A stretch of DNA of 35,812 bases from a virus: IMG/VR virus record IMGVR_UViG_3300037320_000081, positions 1 to 35,812 of that record; one strand, 5' to 3'. Under the pieces are notes generated by a model that was not told where the DNA came from, did no database searches, and saw only the letters and a program-made list of their open reading frames with translations. Positions 10,300-27,448 of the stretch are shown here, piece after piece. Positions within the stretch are counted from its first letter, which is position 1; each line of letters starts with the position of its first letter. Both the position numbers and the translations under genes were made by a program.

Positions 10300-11330
10300 G
10301 CGTTATAGTAATTAAGTCGGAAACTAACGAATACAAAGTACTTGTCAAAGCAGGTGACGAGGAACTAGCAAGGCAAGAAGCTGTTAAGGCTGCAATCAGT
10401 GCGGAAGAGGCTAGACTTTCATCTATTGCAGCAAGTGACTCTGAGCAGGTAGCAACCGAAAAAGCAGCGCAAACTTTGGAGGATGCAGCGTCTGCACTTG
10501 CTTCAAAAGTAGATGCTGAAAGTGCGGCTACTGCTTCGGATGTTTCCGCTACCGATTCACAGAACGCAAAGGAATTAAGCGTGGCGGCAAAAGTAATTGC
10601 CATTGAAGAGGCTGGAAAATCATTCGTATCGGCTGGTGAATCGGCTGGAAGTGCTGCGGCTGCGGCTGCTTCAAGTGCTCTGATTACTAACAAAGCAGAG
10701 GTTAATATCACTACGGCAGGTAATATTTTACGGGCTGATGGAACGCTTTTTAAAAGTATTTCGGAGGTTGAGTTTTTGAGGAATAGCGCTGCGTTTGCTA
10801 AATCCTTTCCAGCGATGTTTATGGGTTTTTCTTTCCTCGAAAATTGGGGAAAAACAAATGAGAACCAATCGTATAGAGGAGACACATATACGATAATTGA
10901 CGGGTTTAAGACTATGCCTGTTTCAGTTTTGGAAGGACATATAAATGGCAGAGTTACATTTAGGGTAGCGGCTTCCGACAATTCAACTTTTGTTCAAGTA
11001 TCATTTATGGCAGATGCGAATAATTATTTTCAAATCGAATTTAACAGGAGATTTGTGACAATAAGTCAGAAACTAAACGGAGTTTTAACTACGCTATTAC
11101 AGAAAGACCTTACAAGCACATTTGGCCTTTTGCGTAATGATTTAAGGACTTTTGAATTTGATATTACAAGAGATAACTCCTCTAATAATATTTATAGGAT
11201 AAATATTGTGGTTAAAGGCCAATTTATTACGTTCGAAACTAGCTCAGAGGTTTTTCAATTTGCTTCATTAAATAAGTTTGGAATACGATCAATCAGTTCA
11301 GGGAATGTCGATTTTATAACCTTCACATGA
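10296..11330 (+). CDS. Tail fibre with alanine-rich stalk and beta-sandwich tip
   Basis: The 344-residue protein starts with ATGA overlap. Residues about 20-140 are an Ala/Glu/Ser-rich heptad-like helix (EELARQEAVKAAISAEEARL, AGSAAAAAASSA), as in trimeric fibre stalks. The C-terminal 180 residues (WGKTNENQSYRGD, YFQIEFNRRFVTISQKLNGV, YRINIVVKGQFITFETSS) are strand-rich and look like a concanavalin/laminin-G type jelly roll that could bind a glycan. With the preceding two genes it probably forms the host-recognition apparatus. The glycan-binding idea is an inference from predicted fold only. Confidence 0.6.
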   Translation: MSVIVIKSETNEYKVLVKAGDEELARQEAVKAAISAEEARLSSIAASDSEQVATEKAAQTLEDAASALASKVDAESAATASDVSATDSQNAKELSVAAKVIAIEEAGKSFVSAGESAGSAAAAAASSALITNKAEVNITTAGNILRADGTLFKSISEVEFLRNSAAFAKSFPAMFMGFSFLENWGKTNENQSYRGDTYTIIDGFKTMPVSVLEGHINGRVTFRVAASDNSTFVQVSFMADANNYFQIEFNRRFVTISQKLNGVLTTLLQKDLTSTFGLLRNDLRTFEFDITRDNSSNNIYRINIVVKGQFITFETSSEVFQFASLNKFGIRSISSGNVDFITFT

Positions 11331-11707
11331 TACAACTACCAAAATACTTCAATCCAGAAACCAATACTTTCGAGCCTGATTTTTCAGGAATCAACCTTGA
11401 AAATTGGCAGGTAAAAGGCTATGCAATGAACGAGGATAATGAAAGCTATACAGTAGATTTGAAATGGATTTCAGCGGTTCCGTTCTCAATAACACCAGCG
11501 CAAGGTAGAATGATGCTATTACAAATGGGATTATTGTCAACCGTAAAAGCCTCTATTGAATATTCAAACAATGAATCACTACTAATCTTCTGGGAGTATG
11601 CCCTTAGTTGGGATCGGGATAACATTCACATCGCAGCAATGGCAGGTATGCTCGAAATGACCGAGCAACAAACAGATCAATTTTTCATTGAGGCAAAAAA
11701 GATATAA
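11327..11707 (+). CDS. Tail-fibre accessory or assembly protein
   Basis: The 126-residue protein overlaps the fibre gene by four bases. The C-terminal part has SITPAQGRMMLLQMGLL, then LLIFWEYALSWDRDN and IAAMAGMLEMTEQQTDQFFI. This layout (a helix beginning with PxQ, then a W-E-Y-A segment, then a helix ending in DxFF) is common to small proteins encoded next to phage tail fibres and thought to help their assembly or to form their last module. No enzyme motif is visible. Confidence 0.55.
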   Translation: MIQLPKYFNPETNTFEPDFSGINLENWQVKGYAMNEDNESYTVDLKWISAVPFSITPAQGRMMLLQMGLLSTVKASIEYSNNESLLIFWEYALSWDRDNIHIAAMAGMLEMTEQQTDQFFIEAKKI

Positions 11708-12193
11708 ATGCAATTTGATAAATTGATTGATCCAATCGACTACACAGAAGAAAATTTTATCGGGGCTAAGGTTCTTCTAATAACTAGCATGTCTTTTCTA
11801 GGTATAAGTTACGGTCTTATTTTGCTGCTATGGTTTTTCATGGTCTTTGATACGCTACTTGGGCTAATCGCTTCAGTCGTAATAAGTGGATGGAACTCAA
11901 TCACAAAAACCAGATTTTGGGCGGGCATACTTACTAAGATTTCTATCCTTTTCATTCCGCTAAGCCTTGCAATTACAGGAGCGTTGGCAGGATTCAATTT
12001 GAACATTTTTGTTTTTAGTTCGATTTATATTCTAATTGCAAATGATGCGATCAGCTGTTTCACTAATTTGCTTTCGATTAAGACCAAGAAACGCTACATT
12101 AACAGGGATTTAGTCGAGATACTTATCAATGCCCTACGCACGAGCATCTACAAATTTGCTGAAGGGATCATTACAAAAATCAAAAAAGAATGA
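11708..12193 (+). CDS. Holin
   Basis: The 161-residue product has about three to four hydrophobic segments: roughly 22-45 (LLITSMSFLGISYGLILLLW), a short one at 46-60 (FMVFDTLLGLIASV), 80-100 (ISILFIPLSLAITGALAG) and 100-117 (FNLNIFVFSSIYILIAN). D-T-L-L-G-L, a downstream polar patch (WNSITKTRFWAGILTK) and a basic C-terminus match the phage holin family with a D-xx-x-G core (holin 4 type). Four-base overlap with the phosphoesterase and proximity to an amidase support a role in forming the lysis hole in the inner membrane. Confidence 0.75.
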   Translation: MQFDKLIDPIDYTEENFIGAKVLLITSMSFLGISYGLILLLWFFMVFDTLLGLIASVVISGWNSITKTRFWAGILTKISILFIPLSLAITGALAGFNLNIFVFSSIYILIANDAISCFTNLLSIKTKKRYINRDLVEILINALRTSIYKFAEGIITKIKKE

Positions 12194-13062
12194 TAGTTAC
12201 AAAAATAACTAAGAATATTCACAGAATTGATTTGGGTGCACCTGGAAAACTTGCTATAATCTCAGACCTCCACTGGGATAATCCGAAATGCGATCGGGAA
12301 AAATTGAAATCGCACTTAGATTATTGCCTAAAAAATAAGATACCCGTTTTTGTAAACGGCGACTTCTTTTGCCTGATGCAGGGAAAGGGAGATCGCAGGG
12401 GCAATAAATCAGACATTCGAGCCGAACACAACAATGCCAAGTACTTGGATTCTGTCGTCGAAACGGCGGTAGAATGGTTTGCTCCTTATGCCTCAATCCT
12501 AACTGTAATCGGTTACGGGAATCATGAAACTGCAATTATCAAACACCAGGAAACCGACCTATTGCAGCGATTTGTAGACCTGCTTAATTACAAATGCAAA
12601 TCAAATGTTTTTGCGGGTGGGTATGGTGGGTGGCTGATCTTGGATAAGAAGCACAAGGAGACAAGTGACAAGATACTGACTCGAATACTTAAATATTTTC
12701 ACGGTTCGGGCGGTGGAGGCGTGGTAACTAGAGGCGAAATAAACCTCACAAGGGCTTTGGAGATACATGAAGGATTCGACATCTATTGTCTTGCGCACAT
12801 TCACGAAAATAAAGCTACTGACATAGTTAGGGAAGCGGTTAGATTCAATAACGGAAGCCATAATTTTGAGCAGATACACAGAAATGTTCATCTTATGATT
12901 ACAGGTACGTATAAGGAAGAGTTTGGCGATGGTTCAAGTGGTTGGCACATTGAGCGTAACGCACCTGTTAAGTATATTGGAGGCAGAATCTTGACCCTTA
13001 CAAGTCACTCGAAAAATAATGAGTATGAAGTTTTAGTTGACTCTATAAAATTTCCGCTATGA
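12190..13062 (+). CDS. Calcineurin-like metallophosphoesterase
   Basis: All motifs of the two-metal phosphoesterase fold are present in order in the 290-residue protein: SDLHWD at about 22-27, NGDFF at about 55-59, GYGNHE at about 113-118, FHGSGGG near 174-180, and AHIHE near 203-207. It probably hydrolyses a phosphodiester or phosphomonoester. The substrate cannot be read from sequence. Its position is unusual, coupled by four-base overlaps to the holin before and the amidase after, so it is expressed with lysis functions. DNA-directed, nucleotide-directed and cell-wall phosphate roles are all possible. There is no signal peptide, so it acts in the cytoplasm unless released by the holin. Confidence 0.85.
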   Translation: MIVTKITKNIHRIDLGAPGKLAIISDLHWDNPKCDREKLKSHLDYCLKNKIPVFVNGDFFCLMQGKGDRRGNKSDIRAEHNNAKYLDSVVETAVEWFAPYASILTVIGYGNHETAIIKHQETDLLQRFVDLLNYKCKSNVFAGGYGGWLILDKKHKETSDKILTRILKYFHGSGGGGVVTRGEINLTRALEIHEGFDIYCLAHIHENKATDIVREAVRFNNGSHNFEQIHRNVHLMITGTYKEEFGDGSSGWHIERNAPVKYIGGRILTLTSHSKNNEYEVLVDSIKFPL

Positions 13063-13466
13063 AAAGACAAATAGATCATGTTGTAATTCATTGCACGGCA
13101 ACACCGCAAAGAACTACCGTCGAAAGTATAATAAATCATTGGAAAAATACGCTGAATTGGAAGAATGTTGGCTATCATTTTTTGATTGAACAAAGCGGTA
13201 AGATTCATACTCTCGCGTCTTTTGATCAGGTTACAAACGGTGTAAAAGGTTATAATTCAAAGTCTATTCACATTAGTTACATTGGGGGTGCGAAGGTAGA
13301 TGACAGGACTGAAGCACAAAAGAAATCTATAATTGTATGTATTGAACGGGCTTTTATTTATGCTGGAAAAAAAGTAAAGATTCAAGGTCACAGGGATTTC
13401 CCGAATGTTAAAAAACAATGTCCTAGATTTGATGCACAGATTGAGTATAAAGAACTGAGCGCATGA
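13059..13466 (+). CDS. N-acetylmuramoyl-L-alanine amidase (endolysin)
   Basis: The 135-residue protein is a single Amidase_2 (T7 lysozyme-like) domain. Expected zinc ligands are visible: His11 in VVIHCTATP, His111 in GHRDFP and Cys121 in KQCPRFD. GYHFLI at 38-43 is the conserved strand after the first ligand region. The enzyme cuts the bond between N-acetylmuramic acid and L-alanine in peptidoglycan. It has no signal sequence and no cell-wall-binding domain, so export depends on the holin encoded two genes upstream. It overlaps the phosphoesterase and the spanin-like gene by four bases on each side. Confidence 0.93.
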   Translation: MKRQIDHVVIHCTATPQRTTVESIINHWKNTLNWKNVGYHFLIEQSGKIHTLASFDQVTNGVKGYNSKSIHISYIGGAKVDDRTEAQKKSIIVCIERAFIYAGKKVKIQGHRDFPNVKKQCPRFDAQIEYKELSA

Positions 13467-13951
13467 AATACCTCCTACTATTCCTAATCCTATGCAGCTC
13501 TTGCAAGTCCGTTAAAAAGGACATAAGCAAGTCAAGCGAAAGCGAATCGGAAAAAAATACTGAGCAAGTTACCGAAACGGTAAAAGAAAAGGCGGCGGTA
13601 AAATCTGTATCTGAGCTAAAAAAATCTTCGGAGTCCCTGGAGATTGTAGGACTGAAAATTTACCCCAAAGGCGTTTTCGTTATTGACTTATCCGGCACTT
13701 TCACGGGGGAGGCTGATTCAGTTGTACAGGTCAAAAATAAGGCTGTTAGCGAGTTTTACAACGAAAGTAATGTAATTACACAGGTTAAGGAGTTGGAGGC
13801 TAAGAAGGACACTAAAAATGATTCTGAAAGGATTACAAGTAAAGAAGCCTTTGAGAAAAAGGTTGATCGAAAGCCTAATACTGTTTTGGGTATTTTTTTA
13901 GTTGTCATCGCTTTGGGGGTTGGATGGTTTTTTTATTGGAAAAATAAATAG
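13463..13951 (+). CDS. Probable unimolecular spanin (lipoprotein with C-terminal membrane anchor)
   Basis: The 162-residue product begins with a lipoprotein signal: KYLLLFLILCSSC with the likely lipidated Cys14. A Ser/Glu/Lys-rich linker and long helical stretch follow (KSSESESEKNTEQVTETV; EFYNESNVITQVKELEAKKD). It ends with a single transmembrane segment (VLGIFLVVIALGVGWFFYW) and a basic tail. Outer membrane lipid anchor at one end and inner membrane span at the other is the layout of u-spanins such as T1 gp11, which fuse inner and outer membranes after peptidoglycan is cut. The position directly after the amidase fits. Alternative: an inner-membrane Rz-like protein whose signal is not processed. 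Confidence 0.7.
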   Translation: MKYLLLFLILCSSCKSVKKDISKSSESESEKNTEQVTETVKEKAAVKSVSELKKSSESLEIVGLKIYPKGVFVIDLSGTFTGEADSVVQVKNKAVSEFYNESNVITQVKELEAKKDTKNDSERITSKEAFEKKVDRKPNTVLGIFLVVIALGVGWFFYWKNK

Positions 13952-14030
13952 TCTTTTGTTTTGCATTATTAAATAAAATAGTTAATTTTATGGTATAGCA
14001 ATTCAGCTAAAACAAACCAAAGCGATTATG
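13939..14030 (+). promoter_or_regulatory. Promoter plus conserved leader, copy 1
   Basis: TTG at 13961-13963 and TAATTTTA at 13983-13990, 19 bases apart, match the Bacteroidota -33/-7 pattern. The spacer carries the shared sequence ATTAAATAAAATAGTTAAT. A leader follows containing AATTCAGCT, AACAAA and AAAGCGAT just before the ATG at 14028. The block 13949-14030 is matched at 14581-14662 with about 89% identity and no gaps by eye, and shared sequence extends back to about 13939. Confidence 0.75.
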
Positions 14031-14483
14031 ATAAAAGGACAGAAATTAACCGTAAAAGAAAGTGCTAAATACACAGGTCAGTATATGAATTGGACAGAAA
14101 CATTTACCGGATTAAAAACTATCGGTAAGGGCGGAGAATGGGTTTGTCACTTGAGTCAAGAAATAATAAGGGAATTTAGATGTAAAAAAATATGCGTAAC
14201 ACCAAATAATCATTCAGAAACTTATTTTGAAAGTAATTCATCGAAAAAAGAGGTTGTTTCTGAATGGCACAAAATTAAATTTATTTATTCCATTTTTCTT
14301 CCAGAGGGTACAGTAGTAGAGACTTATTCAGATGATGAGTATAGATTTGATTTAGACGAAAATTTTGACATTTTCTATTCTGGCAAAATATTAAGGAGAC
14401 CTGCTGGAAAAAAATTAGGACTTGGAAATAAGCAGGTTTATTTTGACCTGACATTTAGCGACTCAAAAAAAATAGTCTTATGA
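14028..14483 (+). CDS. Unknown protein, 151 residues
   Basis: The start is the ATG preceded by the conserved leader and AAAGCGATT. The product begins MIKGQKLTVKESAKYTGQYM and is a mixed beta protein with patches FIYSIFLPEGTVVETYSDDE and FDLDENFDIFYSGKILRRPA. There is no signal peptide or membrane segment. I do not recognise a family. It is the first gene behind its own promoter after the lysis cassette and is coupled (ATGA) to a small membrane peptide. Together they look like an accessory cassette rather than a virion module. Confidence 0.7.
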   Translation: MIKGQKLTVKESAKYTGQYMNWTETFTGLKTIGKGGEWVCHLSQEIIREFRCKKICVTPNNHSETYFESNSSKKEVVSEWHKIKFIYSIFLPEGTVVETYSDDEYRFDLDENFDIFYSGKILRRPAGKKLGLGNKQVYFDLTFSDSKKIVL

Positions 14484-14608
14484 AAATTGATAATTGTTAC
14501 AAAGACAACTTTGGAAGGGATTTATTAATGTTTATTTTAATAGTCTTGGTTTGCACAGCGATAATTTTAGTAAAAATAAATAGTCTTTTGTATTGCATTA
14601 TTAAATAA
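14480..14608 (+). CDS. Small single-span membrane peptide, 42 residues
   Basis: The ATG overlaps the previous stop (ATGA). Residues about 16-32 are hydrophobic (LMFILIVLVCTAIILV), flanked by a polar N-terminus with MKIDNCYKDNFGRD and ending SLLYCIIK. The last codons run into the second copy of the promoter-leader repeat, so its 3' end overlaps the -33 region of the next promoter. This may be a consequence of the duplication rather than selection. Function unknown. Confidence 0.45.
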   Translation: MKIDNCYKDNFGRDLLMFILIVLVCTAIILVKINSLLYCIIK

Positions 14609-14662
14609 ATTGTTTACTTTTATGGTATAGTAATTCAGCTATAACAAACGAAAGCGATCATG
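14581..14662 (+). promoter_or_regulatory. Promoter plus conserved leader, copy 2
   Basis: TTG at 14593-14595 and TACTTTTA at 14615-14622 are 19 bases apart, with the same spacer type as copy 1. The leader TATGGTATAGTAATTCAGCT and the start-proximal AAAGCGATC before ATG 14660 repeat copy 1 with about nine differences in 82 bases. It drives the pair of small genes at 14660 and 14850. Confidence 0.75.
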
Positions 14663-14842
14663 ACACTCACTCAAACAATCAAATCAAACCCTTACTTAAA
14701 AGTTAGAAACTGCTCGGATAAAAATGATTGCCTTTATGGAATAGAAGAATGTAAGAGGATTGAGATAAAGTATGGTCAAAGCAAAATCTTAGATAAAATC
14801 TGGATTGCATTAATCAATAAAAAAAATAAACTCAATAACTAG
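14660..14842 (+). CDS. Small unknown protein, 60 residues
   Basis: It starts at the ATG of promoter-leader copy 2 and ends seven bases before the next gene. The product begins MTLTQTIKSNPYLKVRNCSD and is basic toward the C-terminus (KNKLNN). It has three cysteines in the first half but no clear metal-binding spacing. No family recognised. The dedicated promoter and leader support it as a real gene, probably expressed early. Confidence 0.6.
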   Translation: MTLTQTIKSNPYLKVRNCSDKNDCLYGIEECKRIEIKYGQSKILDKIWIALINKKNKLNN

Positions 14843-14849
14843 TCTCCTT

Positions 14850-15356
14850 ATGAACTCACAACAAAGGAAATTTCTAATTGACAAGATCACTGCAAAAGTT
14901 AAAGTCAAGATTGATGAATTAAGCTCTCAAAAAACGGAAACGCCTTCTTTATCTTCCTTTATGATGCATCTTATACTTTCTGACAAGTTTGAGATAAAGT
15001 CAAATGAGGCGCTTAAAAAAAGTCTTAGAGATAAAGCCATTAAAGGACTTTCATCAGCAAGACCTGAAAATTTTCTTGGTGATGCCTCAACTTGGTCACA
15101 AAGTACAAAAAACCAAGTCACTTTTAAACTAGAAGATTTTTTTATTCTTCCTGCGGATTTCCAAAAGGCTCTTGATGACTCTAAGGCTATTAACAAAGAT
15201 ATTCAAGAACAAATCTATCGGCTAAATATTCAAGCTGAAAGCCTTGAGACTCGCATAATGCTAGCTTCTGACAAAACGCTTCAAAAAATGATCAATGAGG
15301 TTGACGACATGGGAGATATTAGTTTACTTCAAACGAAAATAAAACTACTAGAATAG
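14850..15356 (+). CDS. Unknown helical protein, 168 residues
   Basis: The product starts MNSQQRKFLIDKITAKVKVK and is mainly helical. A short conserved-looking block (LSSARPENFLGDAS) is followed by a predicted coiled coil (DDSKAINKDIQEQIYRLNIQ). Similar proteins beginning with a helical RKFLIDKI-type segment occur among small early proteins of Bacteroidota phages, but I know no function. Its 3' end overlaps the strong terminator at 15353-15382, so it closes the plus-strand unit that faces the minus-strand gene. Confidence 0.65.
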   Translation: MNSQQRKFLIDKITAKVKVKIDELSSQKTETPSLSSFMMHLILSDKFEIKSNEALKKSLRDKAIKGLSSARPENFLGDASTWSQSTKNQVTFKLEDFFILPADFQKALDDSKAINKDIQEQIYRLNIQAESLETRIMLASDKTLQKMINEVDDMGDISLLQTKIKLLE

Positions 15357-15382
15357 CCTAAACCCTTCGGGGCTATTTTTTT
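15353..15382 (+). terminator. Intrinsic terminator, plus strand
   Basis: ATAGCC (15353-15358) pairs with GGCTAT (15371-15376). An inner CCC-TTC-GGG tightens the loop, and a T-run follows to 15382. It starts inside the last codon/stop of the upstream gene and ends the unit transcribed from 14600. Confidence 0.85.
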
Positions 15383-15386
15383 GCCC

Positions 15387-15419
15387 AAAAAAAAGGAGCA
15401 GTCATAAACCACTCCTTTT
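15387..15419 (-). terminator. Terminator for the minus-strand gene (partly bidirectional)
   Basis: AAAAGGAG (15391-15398) pairs with CTCCTTTT (15412-15419). Read on the minus strand, the stem is followed by eight T residues (15394-15387), fitting the gene that ends at 15448. On the plus strand only four T follow, so the minus direction is favoured. Confidence 0.75.
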
Positions 15420-15447
15420 CCGCACTACCAAAACATAACCTATACAT

Positions 15448-16935
15448 CTATGAAAATTCTTTCGTCCATGCCAGCATTTCTAAAACTACTTGAGGCATTG
15501 GTTTATTCTTGTCTTTTGTAACCTCTACAGGTGGGTTGAACTCATTTTCAAACCCGACGCAGTTAACCATGTTGTAACCGTTAGTTTTTCCGTTGTCCTG
15601 AGTCTGCCGATAATATCCTAATAGCGAAGAATCCTTTGCCCAAAGCGTTATAACGTCGTGATTGTAGCATAAGTGACCTACTGTAGCACCTGAGAGAATT
15701 TCTCTATCTCCAAACTCCGTGGTTGGATAACTTCGGAAATCAAAGTTAGCCTTGAAAACTAAATACGCATCTACCGCATTTTTTGGAGCGTAGAAAATAG
15801 CTTCGTAGGCTTCAATAGTATAAATGCCATCTTCAGGAAGTTTTGCATCCGTGAAACAGGCTAATTGAAAAGCAAGGTCTAAATTCTTATCATCCCCCCA
15901 TTTGGTCCAATCCGTGTAGTAAGTTCGGTTTTTTTCCTTGATTATGTATCCGGTGTTGTTAATATAGAAAATGTCCCCCGCTTGCGGTTCCTTACCTATG
16001 AAAAATGCCCGACCATTATTCACTGTAACACTTTCGCCTGTAAAAGGTCTAGGTCTTAGCTTGCAGGTATTCCAGTCTAGCAAGCTTTTATTTCGGTCTA
16101 TCTGGAAAGTGAAGCGACCTGAATGGATCAAAAAAGAGCTGTTAGAATTTGAGTCTTTCTGAAAATTGTAATTATTCAGAAACTCAAAGTTCAGCCCTTC
16201 GGTTACCGTAAAGGTATCATCTTTGAAAATACCTTTGACTAACGTCTTATTATCTCCCCACTTTTTTAGGTTGGTATAATCTGCATTAACATTGTCAAGC
16301 GTGACGTTGAGAACGCATCCAGGGTAAGGATTCTTGGCATCCATAAGACCGACACCTTTGAATTTCCAGTCTACCAATGCGATATTATTTTCGCTTAGAC
16401 CTCCGTACACAAAGCCTATTCCAAACCCTCCATTTTCTCCGTTATCGTTGTTTTTGATGACTACTGCCCACTTTGCGTTTGGGTCTTGAGCTGACCTGAA
16501 AAGCGAGGGCATCCAAGGTTGAGTACTATATATTTGCTTTGGTTGGGAGATGTGAACGTTTTGAATTAAGATTTCAGCACCGTTTTTCAGTGTGATTAGG
16601 TGACCGCTTTGAGTTGCTTTTTCTGTGTCGTAATTCTCAATTCCAATTATGAGCTTTGCAAATCCATCCTTGCAGTAGATTATTTTTCTGCTTGAAATAT
16701 TGACAGAGCTTACATGGTCTACTATATACGTATAACCATCTTTGAGTTCAAAAAATACCTCCTTACTTGACAAAAAATCGTAAAAATTATCAGTTATGTT
16801 TAAATTTTTAGGAGTTGAAACCTCATCTTCTTTAGCTTCCGGAACCGGGGTTACTGATTCGGTAACAAGTTCAGGAGTCCAAAGACCCTCAAATTTTCCT
16901 AGTCCTTCAATTTTTAGTTCTATCTTTCTGTTCAT
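15448..16935 (-). CDS. Large unknown beta-rich protein, 495 residues
   Basis: This is the only large minus-strand gene. The start ATG at 16935 is preceded by AACAAA and AGAGCG, the same leader elements as the plus-strand early genes. The sequence is strand-rich with repeats of the type seen in right-handed beta-helix proteins (VSSVNISSRKIIYCKDG, GHLITLKNGAEILIQNVHIS, NPYPGCVLNVTLDNVNADY) and many Trp/Tyr/Asn residues (TDWTKWGDDKNLDLAF). Two W-G-D-(D/N)-K motifs recur (KKWGDNKTL, TKWGDDKNL), hinting at an internal duplication. No signal peptide. A glycan-binding or depolymerase-type fold is possible, but I recognise no catalytic motif and it is not in the tail operon. It may be a moron-like gene expressed on its own. 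Confidence 0.75.
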   Translation of the reverse strand: MNRKIELKIEGLGKFEGLWTPELVTESVTPVPEAKEDEVSTPKNLNITDNFYDFLSSKEVFFELKDGYTYIVDHVSSVNISSRKIIYCKDGFAKLIIGIENYDTEKATQSGHLITLKNGAEILIQNVHISQPKQIYSTQPWMPSLFRSAQDPNAKWAVVIKNNDNGENGGFGIGFVYGGLSENNIALVDWKFKGVGLMDAKNPYPGCVLNVTLDNVNADYTNLKKWGDNKTLVKGIFKDDTFTVTEGLNFEFLNNYNFQKDSNSNSSFLIHSGRFTFQIDRNKSLLDWNTCKLRPRPFTGESVTVNNGRAFFIGKEPQAGDIFYINNTGYIIKEKNRTYYTDWTKWGDDKNLDLAFQLACFTDAKLPEDGIYTIEAYEAIFYAPKNAVDAYLVFKANFDFRSYPTTEFGDREILSGATVGHLCYNHDVITLWAKDSSLLGYYRQTQDNGKTNGYNMVNCVGFENEFNPPVEVTKDKNKPMPQVVLEMLAWTKEFS

Positions 16936-17000
16936 CGCTCTTTTTTTTGTTTATGCAATCTACAGAATAATTTGATTAAAAATAGCTATCTTTATATCGA

Positions 17001-17061
17001 AGGTCGCTCTTTGTTTAGTTTTGTGATTGGTCCCGGTTGTGAAAATAATCGGGATTTTTTT
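17001..17061 (+). ncRNA. Candidate small RNA with intrinsic terminator, complementary to the leader motif
   Basis: A -7-like TATCTTTA lies at 16987-16994 and a terminator follows: TCCCG (17031-17035) pairs with CGGGA (17050-17054) before seven T. No gene ends here on the plus strand, so the terminator needs another transcript. The 5' part contains GGTCGCTCTTTGTTTAG, the reverse complement of the leader element AAACAAAGAGCGA used before several start codons. No clear -33 TTG is present at the right distance. The alternative is a degenerate second leader for a lost minus-strand gene. Confidence 0.35.
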
Positions 17062-17070
17062 ATGTCAAGT

Positions 17071-17149
17071 TTGTAATTATTAAATAAATTGTTTAATATT
17101 ACATAAGCAAATGAGGAACGGTCTTCAACTGCAAACAAAAGCGATCATG
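17071..17149 (+). promoter_or_regulatory. Promoter, copy 3, and leader
   Basis: TTG at 17071-17073 and TAATATTA at 17094-17101, 20 bases apart, surround the shared spacer ATTAAATAAATTGTTTAAT (17079-17097). The leader differs from copies 1 and 2 but ends with AACAAAAGCGATC before the ATG at 17147. It drives the first early genes. Confidence 0.75.
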
Positions 17150-17401
17150 ACAAATTTAGATTTAGAGAACTCAAAAAAAATACAAGAAACACTAACAAAG
17201 CTACGTGGAAATTTAGAAGACAAGTCTTGGGAGATTAGGGATGGGTTTGAGACAACGCAAACTTGGAATGATAGACAAGATATTTTGGTTTTAAAATTAG
17301 AGCAGTTAGTAAATGAATGCTCCAGGGAAGTTTTAGCCGCGATAATAACTAATCGTGTTTTTGACGGGCACTACTCAGAAAAAAATACTCTTTTTTATTG
17401 A
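17147..17401 (+). CDS. Unknown early protein, 84 residues
   Basis: I choose ATG 17147 rather than the in-frame ATG 17111, because 17147 is preceded by AAAGCGATC like other early starts and 17111 would lie only about 10 bases after the -7 element. The product MTNLDLENSKKIQETLTKLR is helical and charged, with a Trp pair (SWEIRDGFETTQTW) and an end KNTLFY. It is the first gene of the early operon and lies upstream of an XRE regulator. No family recognised. Confidence 0.65.
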   Translation: MTNLDLENSKKIQETLTKLRGNLEDKSWEIRDGFETTQTWNDRQDILVLKLEQLVNECSREVLAAIITNRVFDGHYSEKNTLFY

Positions 17402-17410
17402 TCTAAACAA

Positions 17411-17427
17411 AACCGCCCTTCGGGGTT
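17411..17427 (+). promoter_or_regulatory. Small hairpin in the leader of the next gene
   Basis: CCC-TTC-GGG with flanking AAC/GTT pairs forms a compact hairpin just after the 17401 stop, without a T-run. The same CCCTTCGGGG core is used in the terminator at 15353. It may stabilise or attenuate the message. Confidence 0.35.
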
Positions 17428-17433
17428 ACACAA

Positions 17434-17712
17434 ATGCAAACACAACAAACTAAGCAAATCACTGTCTCTCATACTATCGGTAATACCGAGTATGATTTTG
17501 AGGTTCAGATTACCTATACAGTAGATATAGAAGAGGGTGACTTCATGCACCCTACCTTTTCCGATACCATTATTGATCGGGTTGAGTATGTGGGCAAGAC
17601 GCTTGCTTATAACTATATGTCAAATAAAAATGAAGTAGTCACCAGCACGGTATTACTAGCGGAAATAAGAAAGTTAATAGATTGGGAATTTGAACTAGAG
17701 AAAAACTTATGA
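17434..17712 (+). CDS. Unknown early protein, 92 residues
   Basis: The product starts MQTQQTKQITVSHTIGNTEY and is beta-rich in its first half with many acidic residues (VDIEEGDFMHPTFSD), then a helical end (TVLLAEIRKLIDWEFELEKN). It follows a small hairpin and is coupled (ATGA) to the XRE-type regulator downstream. No membrane segment or known motif. Coupling suggests it works with the regulator or is simply the leader gene of that pair. Confidence 0.65.
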   Translation: MQTQQTKQITVSHTIGNTEYDFEVQITYTVDIEEGDFMHPTFSDTIIDRVEYVGKTLAYNYMSNKNEVVTSTVLLAEIRKLIDWEFELEKNL

Positions 17713-17957
17713 TACTAAGAATAGAAGAAGCGTTAATTCGCTTCAATTCCACATCGGAAAAGACGATTACAATACCGCAACTTGGCGCGGCACTTTGGCC
17801 TGATAGCGCAGAGGTCACTCAAATGGTTTCTGCTTACAAGTTAGTTCGAGGCGAAACCACTAGAATACCGCTTCGCATGATTCGAATCATTTGCGATAAA
17901 TTAGAATGCAGTCCTAACTTTCTTTGCGGATTTGATGAAAATAAATTCGATTGGTAG
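17709..17957 (+). CDS. XRE/Cro-like helix-turn-helix regulator
   Basis: The 82-residue product fits a one-domain Cro/CI-type DNA-binding protein. After a first helix (RIEEALIRFN), the helix-turn-helix region lies about residues 22-60 (TIPQLGAALWPDSAEVTQMV, YKLVRGETTRIPLRMI). The closing RMIRIICDKLECSPNFLCGF is typical of XRE proteins (a helix then S-P-x-F-L-x-G). It is followed after its stop directly by the -33 element of promoter copy 4. It could act as an early or Cro-like repressor on the repeated promoters, whose shared spacer is an obvious candidate operator. That last point is inference. Confidence 0.75.
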   Translation: MILRIEEALIRFNSTSEKTITIPQLGAALWPDSAEVTQMVSAYKLVRGETTRIPLRMIRIICDKLECSPNFLCGFDENKFDW

Positions 17958-18028
17958 TTGTAAATATTAAATAAATTGTTTAATTTTATGTTATAGCAAT
18001 TCAGCTATAACAAACCAAGAGCGACAAA
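17958..18028 (+). promoter_or_regulatory. Promoter plus conserved leader, copy 4
   Basis: TTG at 17958-17960 and TAATTTTA at 17981-17988 are 20 bases apart, with spacer ATTAAATAAATTGTTTAAT (17966-17984). The leader TTATAGCAATTCAGCTATAA and AACAAACCAAGAGCGAC precede ATG 18029. The leader matches copies 1 and 2 most closely. Confidence 0.75.
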
Positions 18029-18289
18029 ATGAAAACTCAAAAATTAAACATCAGAGGTACGGAAATAAATAAGATTTCGTTTTCAGAGATTGAATTGTCT
18101 TTAGAAGAAAAAGGTCTTAATGTAGATCATATCTTTGTTTTACTTGCAGATCAAAGCGAATTTGTTTATGTGAGTAACGGATTTTTAAGAGGTTTAAATT
18201 CCACTGAAAACGAAGTTGGTGAATGGCACCACTATTTTACAAAAGATATTGACGGCCACTTTATTGCAGGAAAATTAAATTTTAACTAA
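18029..18289 (+). CDS. Unknown early protein, 86 residues
   Basis: It starts behind promoter copy 4. The product MKTQKLNIRGTEINKISFSE is mixed alpha/beta, with EFVYVSNGFLRGLN in the middle and ending FTKDIDGHFIAGKLNFN. No membrane segment or known motif. As first gene of the unit leading to the Rad52-like protein it may be an early regulator or a host-takeover protein. Confidence 0.65.
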   Translation: MKTQKLNIRGTEINKISFSEIELSLEEKGLNVDHIFVLLADQSEFVYVSNGFLRGLNSTENEVGEWHHYFTKDIDGHFIAGKLNFN

Positions 18290-18302
18290 ACAAAAAGCGA
18301 AA

Positions 18303-18596
18303 ATGAAAATTACAGTAAACACAACACAGGAAAGGGAAATAGAAATCCCTAAGTTTTTCAGGATAGGGCGACACTCGTATAAACTTAGCAGCAATAACGA
18401 ATATGTTACTGAGGTCAGCCTATACAAATTCCATGCAGAGGCCATTGATTTAGCAATATTCCCTACGCTACGGGTCGAAATGATTAGATACGTATCAGCC
18501 ATTGGAAGAGAGGTAATAACTCCTATAACTGAGCAGGAGTTCAATAACGACCTTTGCCAAGTCCTAACTGAAATAGAGAAGTTGACTGAGCTATGA
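18303..18596 (+). CDS. Unknown early protein, 97 residues
   Basis: The ATG is preceded by AAACAAAAAGCGAAA, the start-proximal element found before several genes here. The product begins MKITVNTTQEREIEIPKFFR and has a beta N-terminal half and a helical C-terminus (EQEFNNDLCQVLTEIEKLTE). It overlaps the Rad52-like gene by four bases, so it is probably made with the recombination functions. Similar small proteins with an EIEIPKFFR-type opening precede recombination genes in other Bacteroidota phages, but their role is unknown to me. Confidence 0.65.
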   Translation: MKITVNTTQEREIEIPKFFRIGRHSYKLSSNNEYVTEVSLYKFHAEAIDLAIFPTLRVEMIRYVSAIGREVITPITEQEFNNDLCQVLTEIEKLTEL

Positions 18597-19216
18597 ATTT
18601 AAAATATTATGACCTTCTGAAAGATGTTCCCGATAGCTCTCTAAGAGAGATTCAGGCAGGCAGACTAAAAGGTAAGTCTGATATAAATCCTCAATGGAGA
18701 ATACAAAAGCTTACAGAGGTATTCGGAGTGTGTGGTATAGGTTGGAAATTCACAGTAGAAAAGCAATGGATAGAACCAACCGCAACATGTGAAACGGCGT
18801 GTTTTGTAAACATAAATCTATTTGTAAAGATAGAAGATATTTGGAGTGATGGAATACCCGGAAATGGTGGATCAATGTTTATTGCAAATGAAAGGAATGG
18901 GCCTTTTGTTTCTGACGAATGTTTTAAGATGGCTACAACCGACGCAATAGGAACAGCTGCAAAGATGCTTGGATTGGCTTCCGATGTCTACATGGGCCTT
19001 AAAAATAAGAACATTGGCCCACAAACAAAGTACGATAAAAAAGAGGATCTAACTCCGCAAAAAGTTGACGCAAGACCTTGGCTTAACAAAGATGAAAAGT
19101 TAGACGCTGCGATCCAGTATCTAATTTCAGGAGGCAACATAGCTAAGATTGAAGAGAGCTATAAAATCAGTAAAGAGGTCAGGGAATCACTAAGTCAAAC
19201 AATCAACAAACTATGA
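18593..19216 (+). CDS. Rad52-like single-strand DNA annealing protein
   Basis: This 207-residue protein would anneal complementary single strands in phage recombination and replication. The core fits the Rad52/Sak superfamily: residues about 35-105 form the beta sheet (YDLLKDVPDSSLREIQAGRL at the start; WKFTVEKQWIEPTATCETAC), followed by the typical helix DECFKMATTDAIGTAAKMLG and LASDVYMG (about 104-130). The helix phrase A-x-T-D-A-I-G-x-A-x-K-x-L-G is the family signature. The C-terminal 70 residues are a helical tail that may bind partner proteins. It is coupled to the genes before and after by ATGA overlaps, including Gp157. Confidence 0.8.
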   Translation: MNLKYYDLLKDVPDSSLREIQAGRLKGKSDINPQWRIQKLTEVFGVCGIGWKFTVEKQWIEPTATCETACFVNINLFVKIEDIWSDGIPGNGGSMFIANERNGPFVSDECFKMATTDAIGTAAKMLGLASDVYMGLKNKNIGPQTKYDKKEDLTPQKVDARPWLNKDEKLDAAIQYLISGGNIAKIEESYKISKEVRESLSQTINKL

Positions 19217-19698
19217 AATCATTATATATCATATCAGAGGAGGCTAGAAATCTAGCCTCCTTCTTGGAAGATGGCGAACTATCTCAAGAGGTGGAAACCG
19301 CTCTGGTAATTAACCAAAGCGAGCTACAGGAAAAGGCTATTAATTACGGCTACGTAGTCAAGAGTTTTGAGGGGGAAGTGTCGCTTATAAGCGAAGAAAT
19401 CAAGCGATTGACAGCGATTAAGAAAGCCAAAGAAAGTGCGATTGATCGTATGAAAGACGCTGTATTATCAGCTATGCAAATCTATTCAATTGAAAAAGTT
19501 TCGTCTCCTATGCTGAATATAAGTGTGAGAAGAACTGAGTCGATTGAAGTCCCCTTGGTTGAGCTGCTAGACGCTAGGTTTGTGACTGAAAAAATTGTAA
19601 AGTCAGCGGACAAGATTGGGATTAAAAAAGCTATCAAGGACGGTGAAATAATTGAAGGGGCTTTCATTCAGGCTAATTATAATCTGCAGATCAAATGA
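19213..19698 (+). CDS. Siphovirus Gp157 family protein
   Basis: The 161-residue product matches the Gp157 family in layout. There is an N-terminal helix with acidic residues (EARNLASFLEDGELSQEVET), a long coiled coil (about 45-90: VVKSFEGEVSLISEEIKRLT, IKKAKESAIDRMKDAVLSAM), and a beta C-terminus with the family phrase LNISVRRTESIEV and later IKKAIKDGEIIEGAFI. Gp157 proteins are found beside phage recombination genes, and one was linked to phage resistance in Streptococcus thermophilus, but their biochemical role is unclear. Four-base overlaps on both sides put it in the recombination operon. Confidence 0.85.
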   Translation: MKSLYIISEEARNLASFLEDGELSQEVETALVINQSELQEKAINYGYVVKSFEGEVSLISEEIKRLTAIKKAKESAIDRMKDAVLSAMQIYSIEKVSSPMLNISVRRTESIEVPLVELLDARFVTEKIVKSADKIGIKKAIKDGEIIEGAFIQANYNLQIK

Positions 19699-20027
19699 TT
19701 AGATCAGAGGTATTTAATCGGGATTGCCTGGAGGCTATGAAAGAGTTTCCAGATGGTTTTATTAAGCCTTTAATCTGGGATGATGAAACTAAAATCAAAC
19801 ACGTTTATAAGTGTGTTTCGGCCACTTATGTAAACTTACCAGTTCAAGGCGATTTGAAATCTCATATTGCTATTTGCGATGAAGATAATTACGGTTTCAA
19901 TGCTACTTTATGGATGATGAATGGAGGTTATAGTATTTGTAGCCATTGTAAAAATATTGAAGAGGCAAAGTTAGAGTCTGAAAAATGGTGGGTTAATTTT
20001 GTTAGCGGGTTTTTAAATTTAATTTAA
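19695..20027 (+). CDS. Chimeric small protein: methyltransferase N-terminus joined to an unrelated domain
   Basis: The 110-residue product opens MIRSEVFNRDCLEAMKEFPD, which is how many DNA adenine/cytosine-N4 methyltransferases begin (strand, D-C-L-E-x-M-K, P-D-G). The expected DPPY motif should follow within about 15 residues but does not. Instead the sequence changes to a small beta domain with CDEDNYGFNATLWMMNGGYS, CSHC and KNIEEAKLESEKWW. I infer a deletion that fused the first about 22 codons of a methyltransferase gene to a following gene and kept the ATGA coupling to Gp157. The product may be functional as the second domain only. It cannot be a methyltransferase. Confidence 0.6.
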   Translation: MIRSEVFNRDCLEAMKEFPDGFIKPLIWDDETKIKHVYKCVSATYVNLPVQGDLKSHIAICDEDNYGFNATLWMMNGGYSICSHCKNIEEAKLESEKWWVNFVSGFLNLI

Positions 20028-20039
20028 CATTATTCTAAA

Positions 20040-20318
20040 ATGGTATCACAAACACAACTGAAAGAGGTAAAGCGGCTATTTGAACAGAATAAAAGCTACA
20101 ATGAAATAAGCTCAAAAACCGGGCTTACAAATGGTCAGATTTGGCATCTAGTCAGAAAGCGGCTTAGGACTAGCAGATACGATTGCAGCAAGTTTACAGC
20201 GGCTGAATTAGCTACTATCAGGGGACTAAGCGCGGAGGGTAAGAACTCCGCGGATATCGGAATCAAGATGGGGTATAGCTCCAGCAAGGTTAAGTATCAG
20301 TTGTTGAAAATGATATGA
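20040..20318 (+). CDS. Small protein with two helix-turn-helix-like units
   Basis: The 92-residue product has a first unit at residues 5-40 (QLKEVKRLFEQNKSYNEISS, KTGLTNGQIWHLVRKR) and a second at 50-90 (TAAELATIRGLSAEGKNSAD, IGIKMGYSSSKVKYQLLK). Each reads as helix, helix, turn, recognition helix, as in Sigma-70 region 4 or resolvase-type domains. It is basic and probably binds DNA. It overlaps the next small gene by four bases. Its function, as transcription factor or replication accessory, is not shown by sequence. Confidence 0.65.
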   Translation: MVSQTQLKEVKRLFEQNKSYNEISSKTGLTNGQIWHLVRKRLRTSRYDCSKFTAAELATIRGLSAEGKNSADIGIKMGYSSSKVKYQLLKMI

Positions 20319-20491
20319 CTGAAAGCAAAAAAGAAAACATACTAGCCCAAATCGAAGTCTTGAAAGCTACCCTGGTAGGTGAAATGTTTGCTGATATGGA
20401 GGCAAAGGATCGGATTCACAATCTGCAAATGGAGCTGAAAGGAGTCAAGCCTGAAGGATCTGATTTTGATTGTCTGGGCTGTGGGAGTTGA
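20315..20491 (+). CDS. Small coiled protein with C-terminal CLGCGS, 58 residues
   Basis: The ATG overlaps the previous stop (ATGA) and the frame ends TGA at 20489-20491. The product has two short helices (KKENILAQIEVLKATLVGEM, AKDRIHNLQMELKGVK) that would form a hairpin, then FDCLGCGS at the end. The closing C-x-x-C could bind metal or be a redox pair, or may act only when paired in a dimer. Small proteins of this shape are found in Bacteroidota phage early regions. No function known. Confidence 0.6.
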   Translation: MTESKKENILAQIEVLKATLVGEMFADMEAKDRIHNLQMELKGVKPEGSDFDCLGCGS

Positions 20492-20505
20492 ATTAATGTT
20501 TTAAC

Positions 20506-20523
20506 TCCATCGAAATCGATGGA
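20506..20523 (+). promoter_or_regulatory. Perfect hairpin upstream of the TGA-interrupted gene
   Basis: TCCATCG (20506-20512) pairs with CGATGGA (20517-20523) around AAAT. No T-run follows, so it is not a terminator. It sits 12 bases before the ATG of the interrupted helix-turn-helix gene and could be a protein-binding or translation-control element. Confidence 0.45.
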
Positions 20524-20535
20524 ATTAGAAATAAA

Positions 20536-20721
20536 ATGAAAAACAAAACATGAACCGAACCCGAAATCCAGATCGTAAGAGATAACTTTCTGATGTCGCT
20601 TGAAGAGCTTTCTGAGCTGGTAGGAAGGAGCAAGACGTCAGTACTTAACATGAAATACAAGCTCAAGAATCAGGGATTTAAGGATGATAGAGTTTATGTT
20701 TGGGATTTAAAAAGGGTTTAA
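20536..20721 (+). pseudogene. Helix-turn-helix/Myb-like gene with in-frame TGA at codon 6
   Basis: From ATG 20536 the frame reads M-K-N-K-T-stop-TEPEIQIVRDNF, then MSLEELSELVGRSKTSVLNM and ends KDDRVYVWDLKRV with TAA at 20719-20721. Proteins of this type begin K-x-W-T-x-x-E, so TGA at 20551-20553 stands where TGG (Trp) is expected. The rest of the frame is intact and the helix-turn-helix signature (LSELVGRSKTSV) is clear. Possible explanations are a recent nonsense mutation, a sequencing error, readthrough, or restart at ATG 20593 giving 42 residues. The genome uses TGA as a normal stop elsewhere, so codon reassignment is unlikely. Confidence 0.6.
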
Positions 20722-20737
20722 AACGCCCTTTTTTTTT
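20711..20737 (+). terminator. Intrinsic terminator after the interrupted gene
   Basis: AAAGGG (20711-20716) pairs with CCCTTT (20726-20731), followed by a T-run to 20737. It overlaps the final codons of the helix-turn-helix frame and separates the recombination operon from the replication genes. Confidence 0.7.
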
Positions 20738-20765
20738 GATTATCTAGTTTAAAATATTAAATTAC
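20736..20765 (+). promoter_or_regulatory. Candidate promoter before the primase-helicase unit
   Basis: TTG at 20736-20738 and TAAATTAC at 20758-20765, with 19 bases between, are a partial match to the Bacteroidota promoter pattern. It directly follows a terminator, so a new start of transcription is expected here. The leader to the ATG at 20769 would be nearly absent unless the next start is used. Confidence 0.4.
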
Positions 20766-20768
20766 ATT

Positions 20769-20906
20769 ATGGAATATATACCCGTAAAAGAATATGCGGA
20801 ACTGGCTAACATTACAGTTCAAGCGGTCTACCAACGAATTAAAAAAAAGCGATTGGATTATAAGAAGATTGGATCTTTTCACCTTGTAAAGAATAACAAT
20901 GTCTAA
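20769..20906 (+). CDS. Small excisionase/MerR-type helix-turn-helix protein, 45 residues
   Basis: The product MEYIPVKEYAELANITVQAV, then YQRIKKKRLDYKKIGSFHLV, is a typical minimal winged-helix DNA-binding protein: helix (VKEYAELAN), turn, recognition helix (TVQAVYQRIKKK), then a wing-like strand pair (YKKIGSFHLV). It overlaps the primase-helicase gene by eight bases, so it is made with it. It may recognise the replication origin or control the unit. A role as a true excisionase is unlikely because there is no integrase. Confidence 0.7.
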   Translation: MEYIPVKEYAELANITVQAVYQRIKKKRLDYKKIGSFHLVKNNNV

Positions 20907-23124
20907 AATATCAGTTTTTCCAGGGGGATATTTCTCTCAAAAGTTGGGGAAATATGTTCCTTCAACTAAACCTAATGAGTCAATGGACTTTGAGGATTAC
21001 ATCTACAATATCAAAAATGGAAAGTGGGAAGATGCTGTTATAAACGTTCGTTCTAAACGTTGGGAAAAAGTACAAGCGCAGGGAATAACCGCTTCAGGTA
21101 CTTTTGAATATCGAAATGTAAAAGGACTAATTGAGCATTCTGGAATTATAGCCATTGATATAGATGCAAAAGATAATCCTAATTGGTCTATTGATGAGGT
21201 GGCAGCTGACCCCTATATTATGGCTTTTCACGAGTCAATTTCTGGAAATGGTGGGTATGTTGGATTTGTTAAGATTGACCCGTCGCGGCACTTGGACTCA
21301 TTCATAGGGCTAGAGAAATACTTTGCAAATGAGTACAAAGTCATTCTTGATGAATCCTGCAAAGATGTTTCTCGTTTTCGATTTGTTTCTATGGATGTAA
21401 ATGTTTTTTACAATCCAAACAGCAAGGTTTTTAAAAAGTACGTTCCTAAAAAGAAAGTTGAACCTCAAAAAACATACGTTCACACAGGGGATGACATGGA
21501 TTTTATCTTGCAGCAGATCAAAGATCGCAGCCTAAATATTTGCGAAGACTATTCCGATTGGGTTAAGGTAGGGATGGGGTTTGCAAACTCTTTAGGCGAA
21601 TCGGGACGAGACAAGTTCAATTTTGTATCTTCTTTTTCGATAAAGTACGATCAAAACGAATGTGATAAATCTTATGATGGGTTCCTAAAACGAAAGCGAA
21701 GCGATAACTCAATCGCTACTTTTTTCTACCTATGCCAGAACCAGGGGATAAAAATCAAAACCCCAAAGACTGAGCAAATCGAGCGTATCGCAAAGCTAAG
21801 ACGTAAGAGTTCGGTTAAGAACGGAGGGATAAAAGACCCGAAAGAGGGGGCAATTAAGACCCTTGAATTATCTGGAATCAAGCGTGAAGAGAGCGAAAAA
21901 ATCATAGATCAGGTTATGAATATGCCTAATCATGAAATTGAAAACGAGCGCACGGATGATTTGATTTCTGATCTAAAAGCATTTCTTTCTGAGTACAATA
22001 TTCTATTCAATACTATAACTAGGCACATAGAAATAAACGGTGAAATTATTGATGATCGGATGTATAATTCACTCTATATTAAGTCAAAGGAAGTTGTTTC
22101 TGATAAGACTACTAAGGACTTATTATTCTCTATTATTGAATCAGATTTCACTAAAGAATACAATCCTTTCATTAAGTTCTTTGAAACTCATAAATATCTC
22201 AAGCCATCCGGGTTAGTAGATGAATTGCTATCGTGTATCAAATATAAGGCTGACTTGGATGGTATGCATGTGACCAACTACCTGGATGTTTTTGGTCACA
22301 AATGGTTACTTTCTGTAGTCGCGTCGATGCTGGGGACGCACTCAGTAATGATATTGGTTTTGACGGGCGGTCAATATGAAGGGAAAACTAACTTCTTTAG
22401 GAACCTTTTTCCTGAAGAGCTGCAAGCGTATTACGCAGAAAGCAAGCTAGATGGAAAGCCTGAGGATGACGCTGCATTGATGTGCAAAAAGGCCATTATA
22501 ATGGACGATGAGTTTGGGGGAAAAAGTAAGCAGGAAGCCAAGAAACTAAAGGATTTGTCATCCAAAGATAAGTTTTCTATTCGCAAGCCTTACGGAAAAT
22601 TTCACGAGGATCTAAAGCGAATCGCGGTTCTTTGCGGAACTTCAAACGAGGATGAAATTATCAACGATCCAACAGGAAACCGAAGAATACTTCCCGTTAA
22701 TGTCATATCAATAGACTACGAAAAATACAATTTAATCGACAAAACAGCACTTTGGATGGAGCTATATTGGGAGCTTCAGGAGGTCGGAGAATCTTGGATG
22801 TTGAGTAGACAGGAAATCTCTTACCTAAACCAGATCACTCAGGTCAATGAGCAGGCCAGTCTGGAGTGTGAGGCGATACAAATGTTTTTTGACAGACCGG
22901 ACAAAGGTGGTTTTCGCGAATGGATGAGCAACACTGAAATAGTCAATTTCATTGAAACGCATACGCGACTAAAGATTTCTCCTTTCAAACTAGGCATGAA
23001 CCTGAAAAAACTGGGATTTGAGAAAATCAGCAAAAGAATCGATGGAGTGCCTAGAAACGTTTACGAGGTAATAAAAAGAGGTGACTACAATAAAAACGGA
23101 AGTGATTCACAATCAGCGTTTTAG
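20899..23124 (+). CDS. Primase-helicase with VirE_N/BT4734-like and VirE-type ATPase domains
   Basis: This 741-residue protein would prime and unwind DNA at the phage origin. Residues about 35-180 resemble the VirE_N/BT4734-like domain, with an IDID metal-binding-type motif (Asp87, Asp89) and SGNGGYVGFVKIDP. Residues about 195-290 look like a primase C-terminal (PriCT-2-like) helical domain (YSDWVKVGMGFANSLGESG). Residues about 430-690 are a VirE/D5-type P-loop ATPase: Walker A GGQYEGKT (490-497), Walker B IIMDDEFGG with Asp536-Asp537-Glu538, then CGTSNEDEIINDPTGNRR, a sensor/arginine-finger-type region. The start overlaps the preceding small DNA-binding gene. A repeat-rich gap follows. Confidence 0.87.
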   Translation: MSKISVFPGGYFSQKLGKYVPSTKPNESMDFEDYIYNIKNGKWEDAVINVRSKRWEKVQAQGITASGTFEYRNVKGLIEHSGIIAIDIDAKDNPNWSIDEVAADPYIMAFHESISGNGGYVGFVKIDPSRHLDSFIGLEKYFANEYKVILDESCKDVSRFRFVSMDVNVFYNPNSKVFKKYVPKKKVEPQKTYVHTGDDMDFILQQIKDRSLNICEDYSDWVKVGMGFANSLGESGRDKFNFVSSFSIKYDQNECDKSYDGFLKRKRSDNSIATFFYLCQNQGIKIKTPKTEQIERIAKLRRKSSVKNGGIKDPKEGAIKTLELSGIKREESEKIIDQVMNMPNHEIENERTDDLISDLKAFLSEYNILFNTITRHIEINGEIIDDRMYNSLYIKSKEVVSDKTTKDLLFSIIESDFTKEYNPFIKFFETHKYLKPSGLVDELLSCIKYKADLDGMHVTNYLDVFGHKWLLSVVASMLGTHSVMILVLTGGQYEGKTNFFRNLFPEELQAYYAESKLDGKPEDDAALMCKKAIIMDDEFGGKSKQEAKKLKDLSSKDKFSIRKPYGKFHEDLKRIAVLCGTSNEDEIINDPTGNRRILPVNVISIDYEKYNLIDKTALWMELYWELQEVGESWMLSRQEISYLNQITQVNEQASLECEAIQMFFDRPDKGGFREWMSNTEIVNFIETHTRLKISPFKLGMNLKKLGFEKISKRIDGVPRNVYEVIKRGDYNKNGSDSQSAF

Positions 23125-23131
23125 AAAATAG

Positions 23132-23265
23132 TGTAGTCATGTAGTCAGTGTAGTAACCAACTTGCATAAACTTATAGAGAATTTTTCTTACGCGAAAATT
23201 ATTTTGATAATTGCATTTACTATCTACATACTTAATACTTATATATAGTAACTACACTGACTACA
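23132..23265. repeat. Iteron-like TGTAGT repeats and 15-base inverted repeat, candidate replication origin
   Basis: TGTAGT occurs at 23132, 23140 and 23149 on the plus strand and in reverse at 23251-23256 and 23260-23265, with a further reverse copy at 23357-23362. TGTAGTCAGTGTAGT (23140-23154) is exactly inverted as ACTACACTGACTACA (23251-23265). The 96 bases between are A+T-rich and hold a small hairpin (AATTTTTC/GAAAATT). It lies directly after the primase-helicase gene and before the SF2 helicase. That layout fits an origin or a regulator's operator, or a recombination site. Confidence 0.55.
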
Positions 23266-23277
23266 AAGGGTTAAAAG

Positions 23278-23373
23278 ATGGGTTTAGGGTTAATGCAGGC
23301 TGTTTTTTTGTATTCAGCTTGCAAAATAAAAGGTGAATACAAGGTGCATACAACTAACTACAAAAAAAAATGA
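23278..23373 (+). CDS. Possible 31-residue leader peptide
   Basis: The frame ATG 23278 to TGA 23371-23373 overlaps the helicase start (ATGA). The product starts MGLGLMQAVFLYSACKIKGE and ends KKK encoded by nine A residues. It has no recognisable domain. The coupling overlap suggests it may serve to bring ribosomes to the helicase gene, or may be chance in an A-rich region. Confidence 0.3.
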   Translation: MGLGLMQAVFLYSACKIKGEYKVHTTNYKKK

Positions 23374-24809: not shown

Positions 24810-24994
24810 AGATTAACGGAAGAGTAGTAGGTAGTTTTGAAATAACAACTTACTACATGGGTAAAACCGAAAGTGGCGAAAAAATTATCATTGAAAAAGT
24901 TAAGGTTCTTGACACTGATGGTAAGTATATTAAGTTCGCAAAACTAAGCGGTGTAATAAGTTACATGAATAAATACCCTGTAACATGGAAATAA
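24794..24994 (+). CDS. Small unknown protein, 66 residues
   Basis: It overlaps the helicase by 16 bases and the nuclease gene by 10. The product MSEKLEINGRVVGSFEITTY is beta-rich (EKIIIEKVKVLDTDGKYIKF) and ends YMNKYPVTWK, like a small beta-barrel. No catalytic residues or known motif. Tight overlap on both sides supports it as coding and as part of the replication unit. Confidence 0.6.
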   Translation: MSEKLEINGRVVGSFEITTYYMGKTESGEKIIIEKVKVLDTDGKYIKFAKLSGVISYMNKYPVTWK

Positions 24995-25919: not shown

Positions 25920-25941
25920 AACCGAAAAGGAGGCTATAAAG

Positions 25942-27379: not shown

Positions 27380-27388
27380 CACCTAATT

Positions 27389-27419: not shown

Positions 27420-27448
27420 CGTTAAATTGCAGTGTAAACAAAAGCAGT

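Follow-up and report, generated by a model that had tools for sequence, protein, structure and literature searches.

Organization of the locus and its shared leader

The window, that is, the entire 35.8-kb IMG/VR virus record IMGVR_UViG_3300037320_000081 (positions 1 to 35,812), encodes a terminase with 54% identity to the terminase of Flavobacterium psychrophilum phages, and the phage is one of Bacteroidetes, probably of Flavobacteriia. The block at 16983-17061 lies between a minus-strand gene, whose ATG is at 16935, and a rightward operon with its first start at 17147; it comprises a TATCTTTA box, an anti-leader segment with GTCGCTCTTTGTTT at 17003-17016, and an intrinsic terminator (Table 1). 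The -7-like box followed by a terminator with no gene to serve, as the initial annotation had described it, was located at these positions. In the 5' part of the predicted RNA, at most a weak hairpin is predicted, with the anti-leader mostly in its loop and the terminator next. No Rfam family scored above the gathering cut-off for the locus, the best being CopA with 20.4 bits versus 60. The minus-strand gene 15448-16935 encodes a 495-aa protein with no PHROG, Pfam, or phage-collection match and with one relative (94%).

Table 1. Features of the candidate small RNA locus and leaders to which the RNA could pair
Feature	Position	Strand	Remark
Promoter-like -7 element TAGCTATCTTTA, including box TATCTTTA (16987-16994)	16983-16994	+	Invariant in 7/7 phages
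Predicted small RNA, ~60-65 nt	16998-17061	+	Presumed start given by the box, presumed end by the T run
Anti-leader segment GTCGCTCTTTGTTTAGTT	17003-17020	+	
Intrinsic terminator	Stem-loop 17029-17056, T run 17055-17061	+	Core present once per record in 7 records
Promoter-like TTTG-N20-TAATATTA of the rightward operon	17070-17101	+	Similar copies near 14597, 17958, and 25304
Leader of gene 15448-16935	16936-16952	-	Possible target
Leader AAACAAAAGCGATC before ATG 17147	17133-17146	+	Possible target
Leader AACAAACCAAGAGCGAC before ATG 18029	18009-18025	+	Possible target; hairpin GTTATAGCAATTCAGCTATAAC at 17990-18011
Leader AACTAAACAAAAAGCGA before ATG 18303	18284-18300	+	Likely main target; spans the 18029 stop codon
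Leader before ATG 26024	26006-26022	+	Possible target
Leader before ATG 14028	14011-14027	+	Weak target
Leader before ATG 14660	14643-14659	+	Weak target

The leader AACAAA..AGCGA precedes the window genes 14028, 14660, 17147, 18029, 18303, and 26024 and the minus-strand gene 16935, and it was also found in the relatives described below. The motif AGCGA was observed at most 12 nt before an open reading frame (ORF) start 7 times among the 62 window ORFs versus 0.57 expected, and 2 to 5 times versus 0.2 to 0.3 expected in pieces of five relatives. Outside the family, the counts were 4 versus 0.5 expected in TCUEAP2, 1 versus 0.7 expected in PDS1, and 0 in both Fpv5 and B124-14. The ORF listed at 17111-17401 probably starts at the in-frame ATG 17147, right after its leader copy. 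Downstream of 18303, the best target, lie the genes for an annealing-type protein, 18593 (PHROG exonuclease; best phage match annotated Rad52/22), and for a Gam-like protein, 19213.

A promoter-like block is repeated at 14597-14660, 17070-17110, 17958-18029, and 25304-25357. At 14660 and 18029, and also at 14028, a hairpin such as GTTATAGCAATTCAGCTATAAC comes next and the leader after it, an arrangement resembling a reusable start cassette.

The published flavobacterial -7 consensus is TAnnTTTG (PMC9723704), from which TATCTTTA differs by one base. In the window, no TTG was found 17 to 23 nt upstream of the box, and one TTG lies 12 nt upstream. A TTG was seen by eye 21 nt upstream of the box in G002, G004, G005, and G006 (4/7 phages), and the -33 TTG is missing in the window, G001, and G003. 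The terminator by itself is weak evidence, because 17 terminators including this one were found in the region 10000-29000, where shuffled sequences gave a mean of 12.8 (SD, 3.4). The combination is rarer: a TAnnTTT[G/A] box followed after 20 to 80 nt by a terminator outside genes was found once in the whole window, at 16983-17061, in a scan that was run blind to the finding.

Conservation of the block in related phages

Searches with the neighboring genes and the block yielded six related IMG/VR contigs, designated G001 to G006. No further relatives were found in viral scans, and among the 54 stretches from one search only these six carry the block. Matches to the block in named phages and plasmids were limited to short pieces. 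Two other stretches, among eight in another viral search, were unrelated, and six matches in a genome scan were judged to be due to chance. With model R1, six matches at E values up to 0.001 were obtained in 395 genomes, and the four that were read were all terminator hairpins.

Promoter box, anti-leader, and terminator were kept in all seven records (the window and the six relatives), with 70 of the 83 alignment columns invariant and a mean pairwise identity of 97%. Identity at third codon positions in six of the phages averaged 80% for gene 17709 and 64% for gene 18303. The surroundings differ widely, with six unrelated kinds of gene to the right of the block across the family and either a minus-strand reading frame (window, G001, and G003) or plus-strand genes (G002, G004, G005, and G006) to the left. 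Because these neighbors are not homologous, the block stands as an island retained amid exchanged surroundings, and recombination through it could add to its identity. An RNA gene is nevertheless the best fit for a block in which box, anti-leader, and terminator were all retained together. The initial annotation had proposed a small RNA complementary to the leader and had made its case depend on conservation of the complementarity; with box, anti-leader, and terminator present in 7/7 related phages this point is answered, and a small RNA gene kept amid differing gene contexts is well supported.

In G003, 7 bases are deleted directly before the anti-leader, which is itself intact. A C-to-T change in the RNA of this phage fits its AAAAAGCGA leaders, yet other G003 leaders keep G. 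No clean compensatory change of RNA and leader was found within the family, the G003 case being at best ambiguous.

The gene at 17709-17957, for a small helix-turn-helix-like protein, has distant relatives (about 35%) in phages of Bacteroides, Parabacteroides, and Elizabethkingia and is kept in six of the seven family contigs; the seventh ends before the gene. In G004 (IMGVR_UViG_3300036670_000159), the same leader copy occurs at both contig ends, at record positions 191 and 33075, a hint of a complete genome with a terminal repeat.

Complementarity to start regions

The pairing described in the initial annotation was confirmed at 9 nt (AAGAGCGAC) before ATG 18029 and at 8 nt before ATG 26024, and the six bases given for the minus-strand start 16935 had to be corrected to eight by eye (AAAGAGCG). 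The longest match had been overlooked: AACTAAACAAAAAGCGA at 18284-18300 pairs with the RNA at 16 of 17 bases. This 18303-type leader is identical in G005, and its G003 copy has a single G-U change.

Four of the ten best antisense matches in the window adjoin start codons, a number reached by none of 600 random segments (control mean, 0.06); among these four, the match at 25346 does not correspond to an AGCGA leader. When duplex energies were compared, 4 of the 44 start windows fell below the 2nd percentile of gene-internal windows versus 0.9 expected, which 1 of 100 shuffled RNAs equaled. Both tests were based on 44 genes, with the TTG-start ORFs 3359 and 26406 left out and 17147 replacing 17111. 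In a blind scan of the window, one of two pieces each of G002, G003, and G004, and the whole of G005 (G001 and G006 not included), start-codon matches among the top 10 numbered 4 in the window, 4 in G002, 2 in G003, 1 in G004, and 4 in G005, and were equaled by 0, 0, 1, 20, and 0 of 150 random segments, respectively. The placing of the matches in G004 is therefore not significant (20/150 controls).

The best match score alone is not unusual in the window, where 26 of 200 random segments reached it; the corresponding numbers were 29 in G001, 50 in G002, 1 in G003, 39 in G004, and 10 in G005. The unusual feature is the position of the matches, not the best single score. Complementarity to mRNA start regions, on which membership among phage trans-acting antisense RNAs was judged, was beyond chance. 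The leader comparison behind 14028, 14660, 17147, 18029, and 26024 used leaders picked by [AG]GCGA, a choice that favors the result, and left out G006.

Proposed function, rival explanations, and other phages

On the evidence of sequence, we lean toward reading the block at 16983-17061 as a small RNA gene in its own right, with a product that would pair with the shared leaders and lower their translation together. Host RNA polymerase would initiate just after TATCTTTA and halt at the terminator. The 5' part of the resulting RNA, about 60 nt long, would pair with the A-rich leader just before several start codons. The duplex would cover the last 15 to 20 bases before the AUG, the ribosome landing region. 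According to PMC6847099, initiation in Flavobacterium johnsoniae is tuned by low structure before the AUG and by A-rich positions. Since the predicted pairing covers the pre-AUG region, where low structure aids initiation, translational repression would be the likeliest effect. Translation of the leader-bearing genes would fall together, most for 18303, upstream of the annealing-protein and Gam-like genes, and joint control of several genes by one RNA is plausible.

One rival explanation, which we regard as unlikely, treats the block as an insulator whose terminator blocks rightward read-through before the early promoter and whose anti-leader is a functionless leftover of a minus-strand gene start, an inverted leader copy. 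It would suit G002, G004, G005, and G006, where plus-strand genes end just before the block and would be served by the terminator; the terminator list is, moreover, empty between 15356 and 15448, and read on the minus strand the segment looks like a leader. Decay would be expected of a relic, yet the anti-leader and the TATCTTTA box are conserved like the terminator in 7/7 phages, and in none of them does the antisense copy have the minus-strand AUG after it that a leader needs. Nor does a terminator need a box 35 to 40 nt before its stem. The minus-strand leader relic, already offered as an alternative in the initial annotation, may account for where the sequence came from, yet it leaves the kept plus-strand box and terminator unexplained.

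There is a small chance that the RNA is real but raises translation or protects the leaders, or that it acts chiefly on a host mRNA or protein, with the match to phage leaders secondary. The computation is compatible with either sign of the effect. Against this reading stand the pairing across the very stretch before the AUG in which low structure goes with efficient F. johnsoniae initiation (PMC6847099) and the leader-like pattern, which by eye showed no obvious excess over the control in 295 genomes of one class. It seems very improbable that the block works in cis. In that reading, a transcript begun upstream or at TATCTTTA would normally end at the terminator; on read-through, the anti-leader would pair with and silence a leader farther along the same RNA, or the segment would be an attenuator. 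A read-through RNA would place the anti-leader about 115 nt from the 17147 leader. However, a promoter-like sequence past the terminator belongs to the early genes themselves, and the anti-leader is kept in G002 and G004 even though AGCGA is missing there from the first leader downstream of the block.

The CI RNA of P4 and the c4 RNA of P1 are small RNAs complementary to phage leaders that act in immunity; they are processed from the leader transcript itself, whereas the window candidate has its own promoter box and terminator. The RNAs sar of P22 and OOP and aQ of lambda are short phage products that reduce the expression of phage mRNA by pairing with it, each described for one target gene in the cited review (PMC12197685). 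The window candidate is likewise a short phage-encoded RNA complementary to phage mRNA; unlike these, it fits a leader that several genes have in common, and most of its candidate targets lie at a distance from it. Phage antisense RNAs are thus already known, and the new element would be one RNA fitting a leader shared by several of the phage's own genes. No RNA against a leader common to many genes of its own phage was found in searches of open-access literature, in which most subscription papers are missing. To our knowledge, Bacteroidetes mRNAs have no Shine-Dalgarno sequences. If the proposal is true, one RNA directed against a leader common to several operons would be the equivalent of a regulon at the level of translation, in a phylum of this kind.

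Ten phages outside the family were scanned, including Flavobacterium phage 11b and Fpv5, and eight of them (TCUEAP2, B124-14, PDS1, mumin9-3, 6H, FCL-2, P12002L, and P12024S) gave no RNA candidate or no antisense signal. Phage 11b has an RNA candidate at 30326-30400 with a TATATTTG box and a terminator, which contains the complement of the phage's own repeated leader AAAACCAAAT and is followed by a promoter-like sequence before the erf operon; its leader and RNA sequences are unrelated to those of the window. Its best same-strand target was the leader at 28716 (0/60 controls), where the next ATG opens only 5 codons and the annotated gene starts at 28852. Five of 65 starts fell below the 2nd percentile, which none of 60 controls equaled, but in the blind scan the candidate was equaled by 4 of 150 controls. 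A minus-strand candidate at 28738 (1/150, partly against promoter boxes) was not used.

In Fpv5 (29 near-identical records), the late/early junction carries one promoter-plus-terminator RNA candidate, at 19888-19960. Two of three repeated-promoter leaders pair with it better than with all 60 random segments and the third does not; in the blind scan, none of the 10 top matches lay at starts, and the best match (-28.5) was reached by 7 of 60 controls. As a leader-pairing RNA, the Fpv5 candidate is suggestive only. A class would gain support from two lineages whose leaders differ and whose RNAs match them, with the caveat that 10 genomes and several 11b candidates were tried. That phages generally place a shared leader on many mRNAs and use one complementary RNA, changing with the leader, as a master translational switch is a tentative and still doubtful idea, which would embrace the window family, phage 11b, and perhaps the Fpv5 group.

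The Start-Associated Sequences (SAS) of cluster K mycobacteriophages are, like the window leader, one short sequence repeated before many start codons; their function is left open in the source, which raises the question of binding by a phage RNA (PMC3203893). The SAS contains AGGAG, occurs in phages of other hosts, and has no complementary RNA described in that source (PMC3203893); its sequence, GGGATAGGAGCCC, is not the window leader, so that the two are at most alike in working. An RNA pairing with the shared leader would offer an explanation, open to testing, for the repetition in some phages of a single sequence ahead of many start codons, the question left open there for SAS (PMC3203893). 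Among nine cluster K mycobacteriophages that were read, the loop of Cain's gap does not fit Cain's own SAS; an anti-SAS loop was absent in Cain, Ximenita, ShedlockHolmes, KiSi, and Rando14, and a structured gap with such a loop was found in Adephagia, Enkosi, LastHope, and Shaobing (4/9), so that the loop is no more than a lead. In Adephagia, positions 58499-58879 form a conserved structured noncoding gap that was matched in 181 mycobacteriophage records.
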